This document shows, one piece after another, positions 18,403 through 54,828 of a stretch of DNA of 64,000 bases. This stretch comes from Flavobacteriales bacterium (GTDB taxonomy: Bacteria; Bacteroidota; Bacteroidia; Flavobacteriales_D; Sanyastnellaceae). The notes beneath the pieces were generated by a model, which worked only from the letters and a program-made list of their open reading frames with translations, was not told the origin of the DNA and did not search any database. Position numbers and translations under genes: made by a program. The DNA lies in assembly GCA_018402085.1 (NCBI GenBank), contig JAGYJM010000002.1, forward strand, positions 1,922,001 through 1,986,000, in the 5' to 3' direction. Position 1 is the first letter of the stretch. The number at the start of each line of letters is the position of its first letter.

Positions 18403-18550
18403 CTCGGTACACACAACTCACGCAAATGCTCCGCTGATTCAGGGGAGCTACAGATGCCGCGCAGGGGCACTCGGATGAGGGGCTTCAGGAGGCCTGTGTG
18501 CCTCTAACAACAGGCCAAATGCCATAGAGACGAGGAATGTGACAGGATAT

Positions 18551-48930: not shown

Positions 48931-48950
48931 GCGATAAATCGCGTCCCTAC
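48927..48950 (-). repeat. REP-like element (GTAG plus hairpin) at a stop codon
   Basis: On the minus strand GTAG is followed by the 9-bp stem GGACGCGAT/ATCGCGTCC with a TT loop. The TAG within GTAG is the stop codon of the upstream gene. A near-identical element is at 61421-61444. Confidence 0.8.
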
Positions 48951-51900
48951 TTTAGCCAGCGTTTCGCCATGCGGCGCTGGCCGTCGCTGACCACTACCTG
49001 GTAGATGCCCTGAGGCCATTCGGATGTATCCACATTCAGGATGCCGTTCGTTGCCACCTGCTCTTCTCGCAGCAGCACTCGCTGCCCGCTAAGGCTGAAG
49101 ACCTCAAGACGGATGCGAGTATCGAAGTTACTCGGACGAACGTAGAGGCGGTCATTGCCCGGATTCGGATACACCTGCACTGAGTACTCCGGAATGCGCT
49201 GCTCCTCCACCCCTACAAGGTCAGTAGCGAAACTGAAGTGGTGCACGATTTCTTTCCCAAAATCATCTTCAAAATTGATAAAGCTGCCTCCCGCCACGCG
49301 CTTCAGGCGGCAGAAGCCGTTTCCGTCGTTGTTGGCAAAAAAACTGAGTCCGTCATCACCAATGTCTTGAAGGTGGAAACGGTAACAGCCTGCATTCAAC
49401 TGAATCGTATCGCGGTAATTGAAGTTTGCCTCATTGTAATCATCCCGGAAGAACACCACGTTGCCGTCTGCGTCTTGAATCGTGATGCGGTTTTCCCAGG
49501 GTTGGTTATTCGTTTTCAGCCAGATGATTAGACGGTTGTCGTCATCTTCTCCTTCACCATAGGTGTAAACAGGTGGTCGCACAAATGCACTAGTGCCTGT
49601 ATTATTGAACGCATTCTCATCTGTACCACCATTGGCGTTGCTCAGCTCAACCCTGAAAATGAGCTGCTGTTCTGAATCGCCCTGCCAGAGCGAGGGGTTG
49701 TCATATTGAAGCTGTACATCTTCGGTTTCAAGAAAGCCGAGGTTACCCGTCCACTCTAATGTCTGCAGCTCCTCATCTATGCCGTATGTAATACTCAGTG
49801 ATGTCAATGGCTGTGTACCGTTGTTGCGAATACGAACCACAGGCTCATCGCAGATTGGATTCATACGACTGTTTACCTTGACGCTGCTTGGGGCGAGGAT
49901 GTCTACCAGCTCAGCATCAACCTCAAAGTTAGGATCACCATACGCGATGATCTGCCCTTCGAATCGGTAATTTCCGTCTGGATCGAAGTCGATGTCGTAA
50001 TCGACCGTGAACGAATCCATTCCTTCAACATGCGGTGTAAGTTCAAAGTTTTGGGTAGTGACTTTGTCACCCGGACACCATCCGGCGCGGTCGTATATCC
50101 AGGTGCCGCCCTGCGGGTAGAGCGGGTTATCTGCGCATTCTTGCATAATTTCCCAACTCCACTGCGCGCTACCGTTTACTTCAACGGTATGGGTATTGAA
50201 GCAGAACTCTGCACAATTGTTTCCTGACCCAAATCCGTGTCCAGATGCACGGGTTTTCAGCCTGAAATTGGTCTCATCGTCTTCAGGCGTGAAAGTGTAG
50301 TCTGTGATGTTTTCGTCAAACACATTGAGGTTCTGCATGCCTTTCCAGAAGGCCTCTACTCGTTTAACTTCACGTGTAGGTGTGCCTTCAATGAACAAGA
50401 ACTTCATATCAAGCAGCTCTTGCCAGTTTCCGGCTTCGAGCTCTACCATATCATGCAATAAAGGCTCATAGTCTGTAACGTCAAAAGTCCACGTCCAGCC
50501 GTCTTCCCCCATATCAAGACCGATACCGTAAGGTGTAATGAAACGACCGAGCTCGTAGCGGTCGATGATTTCAAACGGCACACCGTAGTAGCTGAGTTCG
50601 TCATTGACCACGAGCTCACCCGGAATACCAATTGCTGCGGAGTCGAGCTTGACTCCGGTTTCGTCATAGGTATAGGTGTACCCCGGGAGCCACACGTACT
50701 CTTGCTCACTAATACTGACCTGGTAGCCGTCTACAAACCATGTTGACAGAGACACGGGCGTTTGAATCAGGGTTTCAGTCATGGTTCCTTCACCTGTTGA
50801 AATGGTGTAGTCTCCTTGCTCGAGTGTGATGTGCGGACGAAAATCAATGCTCGTGCCATTGAAGAACAATTCATCAGCTTCATAGAGACGGCGCTGAGGT
50901 GCCCCCTGCGCTGTGCCGTTGAATCCGTTGCCACTGTGATCGATGACCGGTTCTCCGTCTTCTTCATTGAAATCGTAATAAACGACCAGGGCGTCGTAAC
51001 CGGGATGATCTTCTGTTATGGTGCGCTGCATCCACTCACTGATGGTAGTTTCGTCGAGGGCCGTATTCCAGAGGCTGAATTCATCAACCCGACCATTGTA
51101 GTGATTTGACCAACCGGCAGCCGAGCCAATACTGAACTTCACGATGCCTTCCATCGTTCTGAAGCGATCGCTTCCTGAATGCCACAGTTCACCGTTGAGG
51201 TATACACGCATTTCACCGGTTTCGGCATTCTTGGTGAAGGCCCAGTGATTCCATTTCCCTTCGTAGTCATCTGCCGAGGCCTGTGCATCAATGCGATCAT
51301 AGCCGCCATTTTGTCCGGCATCCCAATATACGCGTCCGTTACCCCATGGTAAATGGCTGTTCAGCACGCGTTGATTGTTTGCGTTCACCCCTTCAAATAC
51401 GGTGCTGTTCGAAGGCTGCACTTCGGGGTCTCCGTAAACCCAGAAGCTCACGGTAACTTCATTTTCTATGCTTTCAAATGCTTCTTGCGGCAGGCTGATG
51501 AAGTCTATATTGTCAAAGCTGACATAGCGGTCTTCAGCAGCGCTTCCGTAGGCCATTTGCGGCGCAAAAGCGCCGGATGTTGCGGTGGTTCCCTGTACGG
51601 TATTCTGGTGCACAGACCATTCAAACACCAACCCTGTGGTACCGTCCCAGTCGAAAGTCTGGTAGAACGGAAAAGTGAATGCACCGTTTGGGTCAGGAGA
51701 AAACGGACCTGCATAGACTTCGGTCAAGGTGCCGTCAAACCAAGCTTCAAGAGTTGGGTTGTTGGATGTCCCGACTTTGATGCGCACAAGATCTCCCGGC
51801 GCAACCCCGGCCCCGAGCTCCACGGTGAGTTGCCCGAGCGATCCTGCCGTGATTCCTGCGGTACTCAATTCATCCGCAGTATAAAGGAACTGATAGCGGC

Positions 51901-52411
51901 TGCGACGCGCATTTGTGCGGAGGGCCTCATCGCTAAAGGTCTCCATGGCACCCAAAGCGTGCGTTTCAGTATTATTCGCATCCACCGCTTCTGCGGTGAG
52001 AAAAGCATACACCACCTGATCAAACTGCGGCTCTGAAAGCACCTCAGCTTCGTCAAAATCTTGTCCGCTCAAGAGGTAAAGCGGGTGTGCGAGAAGGTTC
52101 GAGTCAAGCTCTCCAGTGTGATCGTAGAGGTAATTATAGGTGAGGTAATCCCACTCACCGCACGGAAAACCGAGTCCACCCGCTGTGCCGTCTTCAAAAC
52201 ACTTCAACGTATAAGACATGAGGATTTTCTGGTACTCAGTACCGTCATCTTCGGGAAACTCAAACCAGCGTCGGCCCGGGCTATCGTAGTCGGTTTCAGG
52301 ATTATTCTGCTCGTCAAAGGTATAGGTCTGCACCACGAGGGTATCACCGGGGTCAGCAGTCAGGAGAAAAGGCGCACTGAATGCGCACAAAATGGCTAGG
52401 AGCTGTTTCAT
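48947..52411 (-). CDS. Secreted PNGase F-like protein with LamG domain and T9SS domain
   Basis: The 1154-residue protein has a signal peptide (about 1-19). Peptide-N-glycosidase F-like features are GFPCGEWDYLTYNYLYDHTG at about 81-100, and a second jelly-roll with SGHGFGSGNNCAEFCFNTHT and QGGTWIYDRAGWCPGDK. A LamG/concanavalin-like domain is inserted between them (about 320-500, FWVYGDPEVQP to DEFSLWNT). The C-terminus is a T9SS sorting domain (YSVQVYPNPGNDRLYV). PNGase F removes N-glycans from glycoproteins, so an extracellular deglycosylating role is likely. Two hairpin elements are in-frame (TAEAVD, TSGAFAP). The stop is provided by a REP element. Confidence 0.8.
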   Translation of the reverse strand: MKQLLAILCAFSAPFLLTADPGDTLVVQTYTFDEQNNPETDYDSPGRRWFEFPEDDGTEYQKILMSYTLKCFEDGTAGGLGFPCGEWDYLTYNYLYDHTGELDSNLLAHPLYLLSGQDFDEAEVLSEPQFDQVVYAFLTAEAVDANNTETHALGAMETFSDEALRTNARRSRYQFLYTADELSTAGITAGSLGQLTVELGAGVAPGDLVRIKVGTSNNPTLEAWFDGTLTEVYAGPFSPDPNGAFTFPFYQTFDWDGTTGLVFEWSVHQNTVQGTTATSGAFAPQMAYGSAAEDRYVSFDNIDFISLPQEAFESIENEVTVSFWVYGDPEVQPSNSTVFEGVNANNQRVLNSHLPWGNGRVYWDAGQNGGYDRIDAQASADDYEGKWNHWAFTKNAETGEMRVYLNGELWHSGSDRFRTMEGIVKFSIGSAAGWSNHYNGRVDEFSLWNTALDETTISEWMQRTITEDHPGYDALVVYYDFNEEDGEPVIDHSGNGFNGTAQGAPQRRLYEADELFFNGTSIDFRPHITLEQGDYTISTGEGTMTETLIQTPVSLSTWFVDGYQVSISEQEYVWLPGYTYTYDETGVKLDSAAIGIPGELVVNDELSYYGVPFEIIDRYELGRFITPYGIGLDMGEDGWTWTFDVTDYEPLLHDMVELEAGNWQELLDMKFLFIEGTPTREVKRVEAFWKGMQNLNVFDENITDYTFTPEDDETNFRLKTRASGHGFGSGNNCAEFCFNTHTVEVNGSAQWSWEIMQECADNPLYPQGGTWIYDRAGWCPGDKVTTQNFELTPHVEGMDSFTVDYDIDFDPDGNYRFEGQIIAYGDPNFEVDAELVDILAPSSVKVNSRMNPICDEPVVRIRNNGTQPLTSLSITYGIDEELQTLEWTGNLGFLETEDVQLQYDNPSLWQGDSEQQLIFRVELSNANGGTDENAFNNTGTSAFVRPPVYTYGEGEDDDNRLIIWLKTNNQPWENRITIQDADGNVVFFRDDYNEANFNYRDTIQLNAGCYRFHLQDIGDDGLSFFANNDGNGFCRLKRVAGGSFINFEDDFGKEIVHHFSFATDLVGVEEQRIPEYSVQVYPNPGNDRLYVRPSNFDTRIRLEVFSLSGQRVLLREEQVATNGILNVDTSEWPQGIYQVVVSDGQRRMAKRWLK
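51560..51580 (+). repeat. 21-bp GATGC-type hairpin element (in CDS)
   Basis: Stem CGGCGC, loop AAAA, stem GCGCCG, tail GATGT. On the gene strand it encodes TSGAFAP, in the same phase as the copy at 14741. Confidence 0.65.
51978..51998 (-). repeat. 21-bp GATGC-tailed hairpin element (in CDS)
   Basis: Minus-strand reading: stem CACCGC, loop AGAA, stem GCGGTG, tail GATGC. It encodes TAEAVDA, in the same phase as the copies in pyrF and purM. Confidence 0.7.
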
Positions 52412-52601: not shown

Positions 52602-53132
52602 ATGGGTTGGACCTTCATTTCAAAGGGGATTGCAAACAGACAGTTTCTATCTGAACTTGACAAACAATCAATCACTTACGAACGCATCTGGGTTTCTCCA
52701 ACTCCACTTAACTCTATTTTGTGGCAAGCCATTGTTGAAGTTGAGAACGGCTATTACTTTGCACGTTACTCACTCTTTGATGACCGTGATGAGATTCAAT
52801 TTTATTTTGAAAGGAACCACCGTAAAAAAATTGATTCTGTAGCTAATCATCCGCTTATCAATACCTATCTAACGTACACACAGGGTTTGCCTCTGGTCAA
52901 AGTTGATAAACATCAGTCCGTGAGGATATACGCTGTTAAATTCGGTCCGATCAATTATGCTGGTCCTCCAAAGTTTGACTACCCCCTGAAGTTTAACCTG
53001 GATGATCTCGAACCCGATTCGATCAAAATCGTCAATGAATCCGGGCTGAATGGGCCGATCCATGATTTTAAAGGACTCATGAGACGTGTTGCCGGTAAAA
53101 AAAATGCTGATTGCAGATCACGCGAGCGCTGA
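52602..53132 (+). pseudogene. C-terminal fragment of a YdjM-type membrane-bound metal-dependent hydrolase
   Basis: The 176 residues match the C-terminal part of DUF457/YdjM-like metal-dependent hydrolases of Bacteroidota: a short hydrophobic stretch (YMGWTFISKGIA), then YERIWVSPTPLNSILWQAIV, GYYFARYSLFD and the DIKFG-like AVKFGPINY region. Full members are about 330 residues with several N-terminal membrane helices and metal-binding histidines. Those are missing, and the upstream frame (from 52527) reads unrelated, cysteine- and glycine-rich sequence. The gene was probably cut by the same events that left the GATCGGG array 120 bp upstream. It is unlikely to be active. Confidence 0.55.
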
Positions 53133-53190
53133 TTGATGATTTATTATTTACTGCTTATTACTTAGCATTTATTATTCGCATGGATTTGAC

Positions 53191-53340
53191 AAAACAAGTC
53201 TCCCCTGGAATCAGGGGAGATGTCCGCCGCATGCGGCGGACAGAGGGGTGATTTCGAGTCTTTCCGGAAATTCACCGGTCAACCTCTCAGCCCCGCATCG
53301 GCGGGGCAGCTCTCCTCATCTGAGGAGAGCCTTGTTCGTT
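53191..53340. repeat. 150-bp inverted element made of two two-hairpin modules
   Basis: The left arm (53191-53250) and the reverse complement of the right arm (53281-53340) align over about 60 positions. Each has ACAAG, a first hairpin (CTCCCCT/AGGGGAG in the left arm, CTCTCCTC/GAGGAGAG in the right), a second hairpin (TCCGCCGC/GCGGCGGA versus CCCCGC/GCGGGG), and a closing GAGGGGTG or GAGAGGTTG. The stems differ by paired changes. The centre contains TTTCCGGAAA. No open frame is credible here. Confidence 0.8.
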
Positions 53341-53402
53341 TGTTGCTTCTTTATTCAGCGCTGCGCTTCAACAAACCGGCGGCAATAGCCGCTTACCAGT
53401 GC

Positions 53403-53426
53403 GCGCACACTGCAATGTGCGCCTAC
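53403..53426 (-). repeat. REP-like element (GTAG plus hairpin)
   Basis: On the minus strand GTAG is followed by GCGCACA, a 6-nt loop and TGTGCGC. Different stem sequence from the 48927 element, same layout. Confidence 0.7.
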
Positions 53427-53459
53427 AACAAACCGGCGGCAATAGCCGCTTACCAGTGC

Positions 53460-53483
53460 GCGCACACTGCAATGTGCGCCTAC
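53460..53483 (-). repeat. REP-like element (GTAG plus hairpin), second copy
   Basis: Identical to 53403-53426, carried by the second 57-bp unit. Confidence 0.7.
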
Positions 53484-53519
53484 AATAGACCGGCGGCAAT
53501 AGCCGCCGCCACACTGGGG

Positions 53520-53722
53520 TAGCTTGAATAAAAATCAACAGCGCAAATATGCGCTGTTCTCCATACCTCCCTACCCCGCTACCTAGCTTTTTCCCTATCT
53601 CTCTACCTCGCTAACCGTCGATCGGTCTATGCGTCGATCGGTCTACAAGTCGATCAGTCCACCCTATTTGGTATAACCCATCAAAAACCGCTGACCGCTG
53701 ACTGCAGACAGCAGACGGTTCG
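53520..53722. other. Repeat-rich intergenic DNA before aroC
   Basis: No gene is supported. It contains CTACCTCG-like pyrimidine-rich repeats (about 53555-53612), a 16-bp tandem repeat GTCGATCGGTCTA... at 53617, 53633 and 53649, and short GCAGAC-type units (53701-53716) like those of the 48.5-kb array. Confidence 0.7.
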
Positions 53723-53730
53723 TACCTTTG
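53723..53730 (+). promoter_or_regulatory. TAnnTTTG -7 element of aroC
   Basis: TACCTTTG lies 18 nt before the aroC GTG start, giving a leader of about 12 nt. It is placed directly after heptamer-like repeats; no -33 TTTG is seen. Confidence 0.45.
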
Positions 53731-53748
53731 TGAAACAAGTCCACACAC

Positions 53749-54828
53749 GTGAATACATTCGGACATCTCTTCAGACTGACCACCTTTGGTGAATCGCACG
53801 GCACTGCCATGGGTGGGGTGATTGATGGATGTCCGGCCGGACTTGAGTTGAGCGAAGCCGATATTCAAAATTGGCTCGATCGTCGCAAACCCGGACAAAG
53901 CCGACTGACCACGCAACGCAGAGAGAGTGACACGGTTCAAATCCTCAGCGGCGTTTTTGAAGGTAAGACCACAGGTACGCCCATTGGTTTTCTCATCCCC
54001 AACGATGATGCAAAGTCGAAAGACTACAGCCACATCAAAGACAGCTATCGTCCTTCACATGCCGATTACACTTACCAGGAGAAGTACGGACATCGCGACT
54101 ACCGCGGTGGTGGACGCTCTTCTGCCCGGGAGACTGCATGCCGTGTTGTAGGAGGTGCCATTGCAGCCAAGCTGCTTGCTACCAAAGGCATTGAAGTCAG
54201 AGCGTGGGTTGAGCGTGTGAAAGATGTACAAATTGAACGCAGCTTTGAAGTGCTCCCCACAGTAGAGCAAGTCGATAGCAACCTTGTTCGTTGTCCGGAC
54301 CCCGATGCTGCGACCAAAATGGAGGCTCTCATTGAGCAAATGCGCAAAGAAGGCAACACCGTAGGCGGAGCCATCCGCTGCGTCATTGAAGGCGTACCGG
54401 TCGGACTCGGTCAACCAGTCTTTGGAAAGCTGCACGCCGCTCTCGGCGGGGCGATGCTCGGCATCAACGCCGTCAAAGCATTTGAAATCGGTAGCGGCAT
54501 CAGCGGCACGTACCGCACCGGTGCAGAAGAGAACGACCTCTTTACCTCAAAAGAAGGCATGATCAGCACGCTAACCAACAACAGTGGTGGGGTGCAAGGC
54601 GGCATCAGCAACGGACAAGCGATCAGTTTTTCGGTGGCTTTCAAACCGGTAGCGACCCTGATGCGCGACCAGCAATCGGTTGACCAGAAAGGCGAAGCCA
54701 CCACGGTGAAAGGAAAAGGAAGACACGACCCTTGTGTCTTGCCCCGCGCCGTGCCCATCGTTGAAGCTATGGCAGCGTTGGTGTTGGCCGATCATATTTT
54801 GATTGCAGCGGCGGATCGTTTAAAGTGA
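53749..54828 (+). CDS. aroC: Chorismate synthase
   Basis: AroC makes chorismate from EPSP, the last step of the shikimate pathway, and needs reduced FMN. The 359-residue protein has the three family signatures: [17 protein letters not shown], the [18 protein letters not shown] block and [24 protein letters not shown]. It starts with GTG 53749; a stop immediately upstream in frame rules out an earlier start. No other aro gene is nearby. Confidence 0.98.

Follow-up and report, generated by a model that had tools for sequence, protein, structure and literature searches.

Inverted pairs of two-hairpin repeat modules, predicted to form class II intrastrand triplexes, in a Flavobacteriales genome

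Results

The DNA analyzed here (the window) is a 64,000-nucleotide stretch of the genome of a Flavobacteriales bacterium. At 53193-53336 it carries an inverted pair of modules, flanked on one side by an open reading frame (ORF) without a Pfam match (52602-53132) and on the other by aroC (53749-54828); a 100-codon ORF at 53220-53522 overlaps the region. A search of 52900-53760 against Rfam gave no match at the gathering score, and sub-gathering matches within 53.2-53.35 kb reached up to E 5. The parts of the pair are listed below, where R1 is a covariance model built from 25 distinct modules of the host genome.

53193-53336: inverted pair of two modules of about 60 nt, 3' ends facing (read from the window letters)
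53196-53249, + strand: full extent of module A, from AAG through both hairpins to the closing tract; R1 match 53196-53250, 65.3 bits, letters checked
53199-53206, + strand: module A pyrimidine arm (Y), TCTCCCCT
53213-53220, + strand: module A purine arm (R), AGGGGAGA, Watson-Crick paired with Y
53222-53241, + strand: module A hairpin 2, within the second loop; across copies its pairing is kept and its sequence is free
53242-53249, + strand: module A closing tract, AGAGGGGT, mirroring the R arm; proposed reverse-Hoogsteen third strand
53250-53281, no strand: spacer separating the facing 3' ends of modules A and B
53282-53333, - strand: full extent of module B, from AAG through both hairpins to the closing tract; R1 match 53281-53333, 72.9 bits, letters checked
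53323-53330, - strand: module B pyrimidine arm (Y), GCTCTCCT
53309-53316, - strand: module B purine arm (R), AGGAGAGC
53290-53307, - strand: module B hairpin 2, within the second loop
53282-53289, - strand: module B closing tract, TGAGAGGT, mirroring the R arm with its outermost T opposite C; proposed third strand

Read 5' to 3', module A consists of AAG, TCTCCCCT, the loop GGAATC, AGGGGAGA, a single T, a 20-nt hairpin 2 and AGAGGGGT, and module B of AAG, GCTCTCCT, the loop CAGATG, AGGAGAGC, T, an 18-nt hairpin 2 and TGAGAGGT. Their second loops are thus 21 nt (A) and 19 nt (B) long, and the spacer has no significant fold of its own (53245-53282, z -0.68). When both strands of the 64-kb window were scanned with a strict three-tract descriptor, modules A and B were found and nothing else. 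A weak R1 match at 18425-18484 (16 bits, E 0.0067), which the strict triplex descriptor misses, looks like a C-type module in decay. Immediately downstream of the pair, 53360-53525 holds about 2.7 copies of a 57-bp tandem repeat with GCGGCAATAGCCGC hairpins; this stretch has 51 matches in the host genome, several of them near triplex modules, and represents a second dispersed repeat family. On the other side, a large ORF at 48947-52411 encodes LamG-like, PNGase F C-terminal-like and Por secretion-tail domains.

Folded as single-stranded DNA, each arm of the pair formed two adjacent hairpins, with energies of -21.6 kcal/mol for arm 1 (z -6.9) and -19.5 kcal/mol for arm 2 (z -5.0); none of 200 shuffles of either arm was as stable, and RNA parameters gave essentially the same folds. 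In an alignment of 25 distinct host-genome modules, 95.5% of the cells in the stems were paired, falling to 46-55% when the 3' partner was slid out of register. Both sides had changed in 9 of the 15 pairs (5.8 in shuffles), and doubly changed cells numbered 60 against 19.1 in shuffles; the pairs altered on both sides were two in hairpin 1 (T-A/G-C and C-G/T-A) and all seven in hairpin 2. An earlier note on this DNA had described, at 53191-53340, an inverted pair of two-hairpin modules whose stems covary and whose linkers are shared. The folds and the covariation bear out the pair, at 53193-53336, and the covariation holds across the 25 modules; of the linkers, the AAG before hairpin 1 and the T(G) after it are common to both modules.

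The closing tract is the R arm read backwards, with G opposite G and either A or T opposite A. In this mirror register it fits hairpin 1 at 8 of 8 positions in module A and at 7 of 8 in module B, where the eighth is a T opposite C. The outermost C was often found opposite a T of the closing tract in other copies as well, T.CG being a tolerated triplet. Tracts change with their stems: GGGGAG is followed by GAGGGG, GGAGAG by GAGAGG, GGGAGG by GGAGGG and AGGAGG by GGAGGA, and in further families AGGGGGAG by GAGGGGGT and GAGGAGGGG by GGGGTGGT. Within the 25 host-genome modules, alignment columns 8, 21 and 60 take the combinations C, G, G (13 rows) or T, A, A (12 rows), and columns 4, 25 and 56 the combinations G, C, T (15 rows) or T, A, A (10 rows); these two closing-tract columns, varying with hairpin 1 in one genome, may represent two or three events only. 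Since the rows of this alignment (A2) were picked from modules whose closing tract was on a short list of variants, the near-invariance of the tract in it is partly by choice. The triplets concerned correspond to those of the purine motif, given as GGC and A(T)AT in Holder et al. 2015 (PMC4666352).

The earlier note had instead proposed that GAGGGG or GAGAGG pairs antiparallel with the first arm of hairpin 1, so that each module has two alternative folds. Under such a two-state switch the closing tract would displace the purine arm and pair with the pyrimidine arm. Five base pairs of this kind can indeed form in each window module, but their register differs between the two, and the mirror (triplex) register describes the closing tract better.

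The registers were compared by permuting 3' segments among modules. The 160 R1 matches taken for this exclude near-duplicates, shadow matches to the stem alone and the bulk of the weakest matches; 2 of them could not be parsed and 3 with a purine core below 6 were dropped, leaving 155; 40 of the 158 parsed matches come from the host genome. Over 64 distinct pairs, the triplex code scored 0.899 against 0.820 in permuted pairs (z 7.9, 0 of 5,000 permutations) and the strict mirror gave z 6.9. Antiparallel pairing with Y gave z 3.4 (5 of 5,000), which speaks for the switch, but this fell to 0.7 once GU pairs were allowed; antiparallel pairing with R gave z -1.2. Over the span from first to last G, the code was perfect in 121 of 153 modules and imperfect in 32, compared with perfect fits in 1,369 of 4,813 combinations with a segment from a module of another core; the tracts are of low complexity, so that wrong segments fit the code at 0.82 and perfectly in 28%. 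Perfect direct copies, against the switch, occurred in just 11 of the 153. The copies are related, so that all these counts are of copies and not of independent events.

When tracts were placed by their Gs alone, the base opposite A was A in 55 cases, T in 42, C in 9 and G in 11, and in the GGGGTGGT and GGGGTGAGG families it was T nearly throughout. Because T opposite A suits a triplex but no duplex with Y, whether antiparallel or parallel, R is favored as the partner of the tract. Copies with a mismatch at an informative position of hairpin 1 were divided, the tract following Y in five (L204:148, L150, L109, L251:494 and L044:1564) and R in four (L221:123, L249:516, L045 and L037), and therefore do not decide between Y and R or clearly favor R.

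Because the closing tract is itself part of R1, in the form of unpaired columns, searches that fix hairpin 1 only were also run. The pattern CCCCTCCTC..GAGGAGGGG was present in 13 of 395 genomes and CCCCTCTCC..GGAGAGGGG in 32 of 395, while neither pattern read backwards occurred in any of the 395. At distinct sites within the loci examined in detail, a tract matching at 8/9 or better lay on one side in 17 of 19 CCCCTCCTC..GAGGAGGGG sites (3.9% of control window pairs) and in 37 of 39 CCCCTCTCC..GGAGAGGGG sites (9.7% of control window pairs), and the tracts differ between the two stem families (GGGGTGGT and GGGGTGAGG, respectively). Direct copies at 8/9 within 60 nt, as the switch would have them, were found at 14 of the 39 GGAGAGGGG sites, some of them contributed by neighboring copies, but at only 1 of the 19 GAGGAGGGG sites. 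Moreover, GGGGTGGT cannot pair antiparallel with CCCCTCCTC over its full length, and mirror-fitting tracts with no antiparallel fit were seen in the GAGGAGGGG families. Taken together, these data make the antiparallel switch very unlikely.

The same coupling was seen within the host genome, where CTCYCCT..AGGRGAG occurs at 100 sites and its backwards pattern at none. Flanks were examined for 87 distinct sites, 85 of them perfect. GAGAGG lay within 60 nt on either side of 23 of the 27 AGGAGAG stems (two others had a change at the variable base and two had no tract), and GAGGGG within 60 nt on either side of 50 of the 58 AGGGGAG stems (eight had none). None of these 27 and 58 stems carried solely the tract of the other type, although many of the sites are copies of one another. 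That the mirror arises by chance from low-complexity purine tracts, or reflects a G-quadruplex motif, is hardly credible on these numbers: many families do contain runs of G and the null itself scores high, but no permutation in 5,000 reached the observed fit, the backwards stem patterns are missing from the 395 genomes and from the host genome, and GAGAGG/AGGAGAG and GGAGGA/AGGAGG obey the rule with no run of three Gs. The triplex register thus remains the preferred description of the closing tract.

Further copies, whose absence the earlier note had named as counting against its reading, are plentiful. At least 140 R1 matches at E<=0.1 were found in the 3.78-Mb host genome among the 150 of 1,428 first-look candidates that were scored, and BLAST of the 150-bp element gave 67 matches. 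In the 130 of these R1 matches kept for layout analysis, 68 modules had a neighbor within 150 nt, close neighbors were inverted in 35 of 41 cases, and gaps clustered at 20-23 nt for minus-plus pairs (14 of 23) and 30-31 nt for plus-minus pairs (10 of 12); about 0.6 close pairs would be expected at random on the main contig, and many of the close-neighbor and gap counts come from one tandem array of seven inverted A-B pairs at about 160 nt per unit (G000 C2:2141710-2142809, L048). Sixteen distinct inverted pairs had readable types, of which 13 joined unlike modules (10 AB and 3 BC), 2 were CC and 1, with overlapping type assignments, was BB. The orientation of solo copies, taken along the contig and not relative to the replication origin, showed nothing clear. 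At two further places (C2:2550542-2551704, L243; C2:3195789-3198496, L244 and L245), modules recur at steps of about 270 nt, apparently within longer tandem repeats.

The repeats are extragenic. With ORFs defined by a simple longest-ORF rule at 110 codons or more, below which the 100-codon ORF at 53220-53522 falls, none of 35 clusters (65 BLAST-found modules) lay within an ORF, compared with 70% of random 55-mers from the same stretches. Of 34 clusters placed relative to ORFs, 20 were between co-directional, 10 between convergent and 4 between divergent neighbors. This distribution would agree with a bidirectional intrinsic terminator or a stabilizer of mRNA ends, with a T-rich tail coming after hairpin 1 when the module is read from its opposite side, and a terminator scan gave matches on both strands, at 53309-53330 (+) and 53220-53199 (-); the region had six such matches where shuffles gave 0.8. 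The matches are weak, however, as are the tails CTTGTTCGTT and CTTGTTTTGT; hairpin 2, the closing tract and its code are left unexplained; and work cited by Holder et al. found no terminator activity in the Escherichia coli PIT elements (PMC4666352). We therefore regard termination as an unlikely explanation of the family.

R1 matches were found in at least 43 of 395 Bacteroidota genomes, the host included, with at most 14 candidates scored per genome. Two genomes of the same genus (G001 and G002) gave no R1 match under strict filters with 93 candidates scored each, and the regions upstream of aroC in four relatives, which are not alignable sites, likewise gave none. The exact B-type hairpin 1 pattern had no match in a genome-contig collection from which the host species may be absent. 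Among 48 relatives found by hairpin 1 only, the second loop was 2-9 nt long in 33 and 18-49 nt in 15; a 3-nt second loop also occurs in some R1-found families (L143, L145, L211, L213 and L216). Against shuffles that keep base composition only, 9 of the 15 long second loops folded better than all but 10 of 200, compared with 14 of 180 control segments, and the other 6 had no clear hairpin.

Discussion

The family consists of dispersed extragenic repeats with two covarying hairpins and a mirror-register tract tied to hairpin 1. On the letters of these copies, the element in the window is probably a pair of class II intrastrand triplex modules of unlike type, set in inverted orientation; the triplex fold is a prediction. 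In PMC4666352, class II order is described as a 5' pyrimidine domain, a purine domain and a 3' reverse-Hoogsteen domain on one strand, and a TM_ECO oligonucleotide is reported to form such a triplex in vitro. In the same account, DMS footprints of TM_ECO in vivo gave no sign of a stable triplex, and its double-stranded DNA gave no triplex signals. RNA is reported there not to form purine-motif triplexes, so that the code of the closing tract points to DNA.

The closest known repeats are BoxC/PIT/TM_ECO, as described in PMC4666352. The window modules share with them the order of Y, R and third strand on one strand and, along the stem, the G.GC, A.AT and T.AT code. Both families are extragenic, the E. 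coli repeats being always intergenic in strain MG1655; in both, inverted pairs join two unlike types; and the account of the E. coli repeats likewise reports no mobile element found beside them. In contrast, the stem of TM_ECO is 9 nt long and differs in sequence, its second loop measures 3 nt, and its formula, CCCTCNCCC-N3-6-GGGNGAGGG-N3-GGGNGAGGG, does not describe the window modules. In the window modules the second loops (21 and 19 nt) contain a covarying hairpin and exceed those allowed in the published class II searches described there (1-6 nt in ITxF, or 0-10 nt in an earlier search); their family belongs to Bacteroidota and uses several stem sequences. Since the modules follow the class II order and code and lack the TM_ECO sequence and short loop, they represent a variant of the BoxC/PIT/TM kind. 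What is new relative to BoxC/PIT/TM_ECO is the hairpin in loop 2, the diverse Bacteroidota families and the covariation of three tracts. The modules resemble H-DNA in their mirror purine tracts and purine-motif triplets and differ from it in that the duplex part is a same-strand hairpin, with all three tracts on one strand. Among the listed titles and abstracts of open-licence PMC articles dealing with triplex repeats together with Bacteroidetes, BIME, BoxC or transposases, no other one described such repeats.

We propose that when a module becomes single-stranded, during replication or transcription or through supercoiling, its Y and R arms would form hairpin 1. Where the E. coli elements have a short second loop, hairpin 2 would act as a compact strut, and the closing tract would then bind the purine arm in reverse-Hoogsteen fashion, through G.GC, A.AT and T.AT triplets and possibly T.CG at the outer pair. 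The literature, together with the arrangement of the copies in inverted pairs and tandem arrays, leads us further to suggest that triplex folds would make polymerases stall and that pairs would spread and multiply when strands switch or slip between inverted modules. We infer that the family is a self-spreading or tolerated DNA-structure repeat and not a regulatory RNA. The concerted change of three tracts suggests that evolution preserves the unusual triplex fold. A broader reading, for which and against which we would weigh the chances equally, is that an intrastrand R.RY triplex, braced by a hairpin strut in loop 2 and possible only in DNA, is kept by selection, that this fold would be the recognized or replicating unit of a widespread repeat class including E. 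coli BoxC, and that it would be spread by an as yet undescribed enzyme or replication mechanism. The E. coli motif is reported to fold in vitro and to give no footprint of a stable triplex in vivo (PMC4666352). That three tracts change in concert in several families is evidence of a kind beyond the reach of biophysics by itself, and it makes testable whether triplex motifs have a role in bacterial genomes; the repeats also offer a defined place to look for a spreading agent and for effects on replication.

The earlier note had likened the element to a BIME-type composite or a non-autonomous element. As regards layout the likeness stands: as in REP/BIME systems with their RAYT (TnpA_REP), according to PMC6006769, these are dispersed extragenic palindromic units in alternating orientation, here with preferred spacings and the seven-pair array. 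Membership among REP/RAYT systems does not, since the family has no GT[AG]G foot (GTAG or GTGG; AAG and similar sequences precede hairpin 1) and no adjoining RAYT in the genes tested. RAYT subclass 2.6 is described there as mostly from Bacteroidetes and associated with atypical structures that have copies elsewhere in the genome, and identity of the family with some of the 2.6 structures is possible. A non-autonomous element remains a candidate, its partner enzyme not having been found.

A Y1 transposase was sought in the host genome, in 60 genomes from the search for relatives and in 20 mostly module-bearing genomes, and the flanks of the examined Y1 genes were scanned with R1 and the triplex descriptor, covering part of the Y1 loci. 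The sole Y1 match of the host genome (L001) lies above the Pfam cut-off and below the NCBIfam cut-off for IS200, and neither scan found a module near it. The triplex descriptor occurred within 600 nt of a Y1 gene once among 58 gene rows, in which three genes were entered twice and for which genes were recognized by a simple motif that missed some Y1 genes, the host's included. R1 matches lay at least about 0.9 kb from the examined Y1 genes, in two genomes: one module is about 1.05 kb from a Y1 gene in G055, and modules are about 0.9 kb from a RAYT-like gene in G129, which a different palindrome adjoins. A Y1 transposase is therefore unsupported as the partner by the R1 and triplex-descriptor scans of the examined Y1 flanks.

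These scans also bear on the idea that the modules are substrates of a structure-specific recombinase or transposase, whose protein would read the mirror tract, as with the guide and cleavage sequences of IS200/IS605, with no triplex involved. Dispersal, inverted pairs and the tandem array would suit such a substrate, as would the atypical flanking structures described for Bacteroidetes Y1 subclass 2.6 in PMC6006769. Nevertheless, no module adjoins the host's Y1 gene, the 58 gene rows yielded the single nearby descriptor, genome G337 has modules and no Y1 match, and a protein-read site needs no interchange of T and A restricted to positions opposite A, which makes this explanation improbable; the triplex reading accommodates that interchange through its A.AT and T.AT triplets. 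As to the Y1 genes themselves, the match in the host genome (L001 1387-1866) encodes 159 aa with a DHIH motif and resembles the low-copy subclass 1.2 described in PMC6006769. In G129, the RAYT-like gene (L171 1306-1800) is followed downstream by a TAGCGCGGACT...AGTCCGCGCTA palindrome that resembles a canonical REP.
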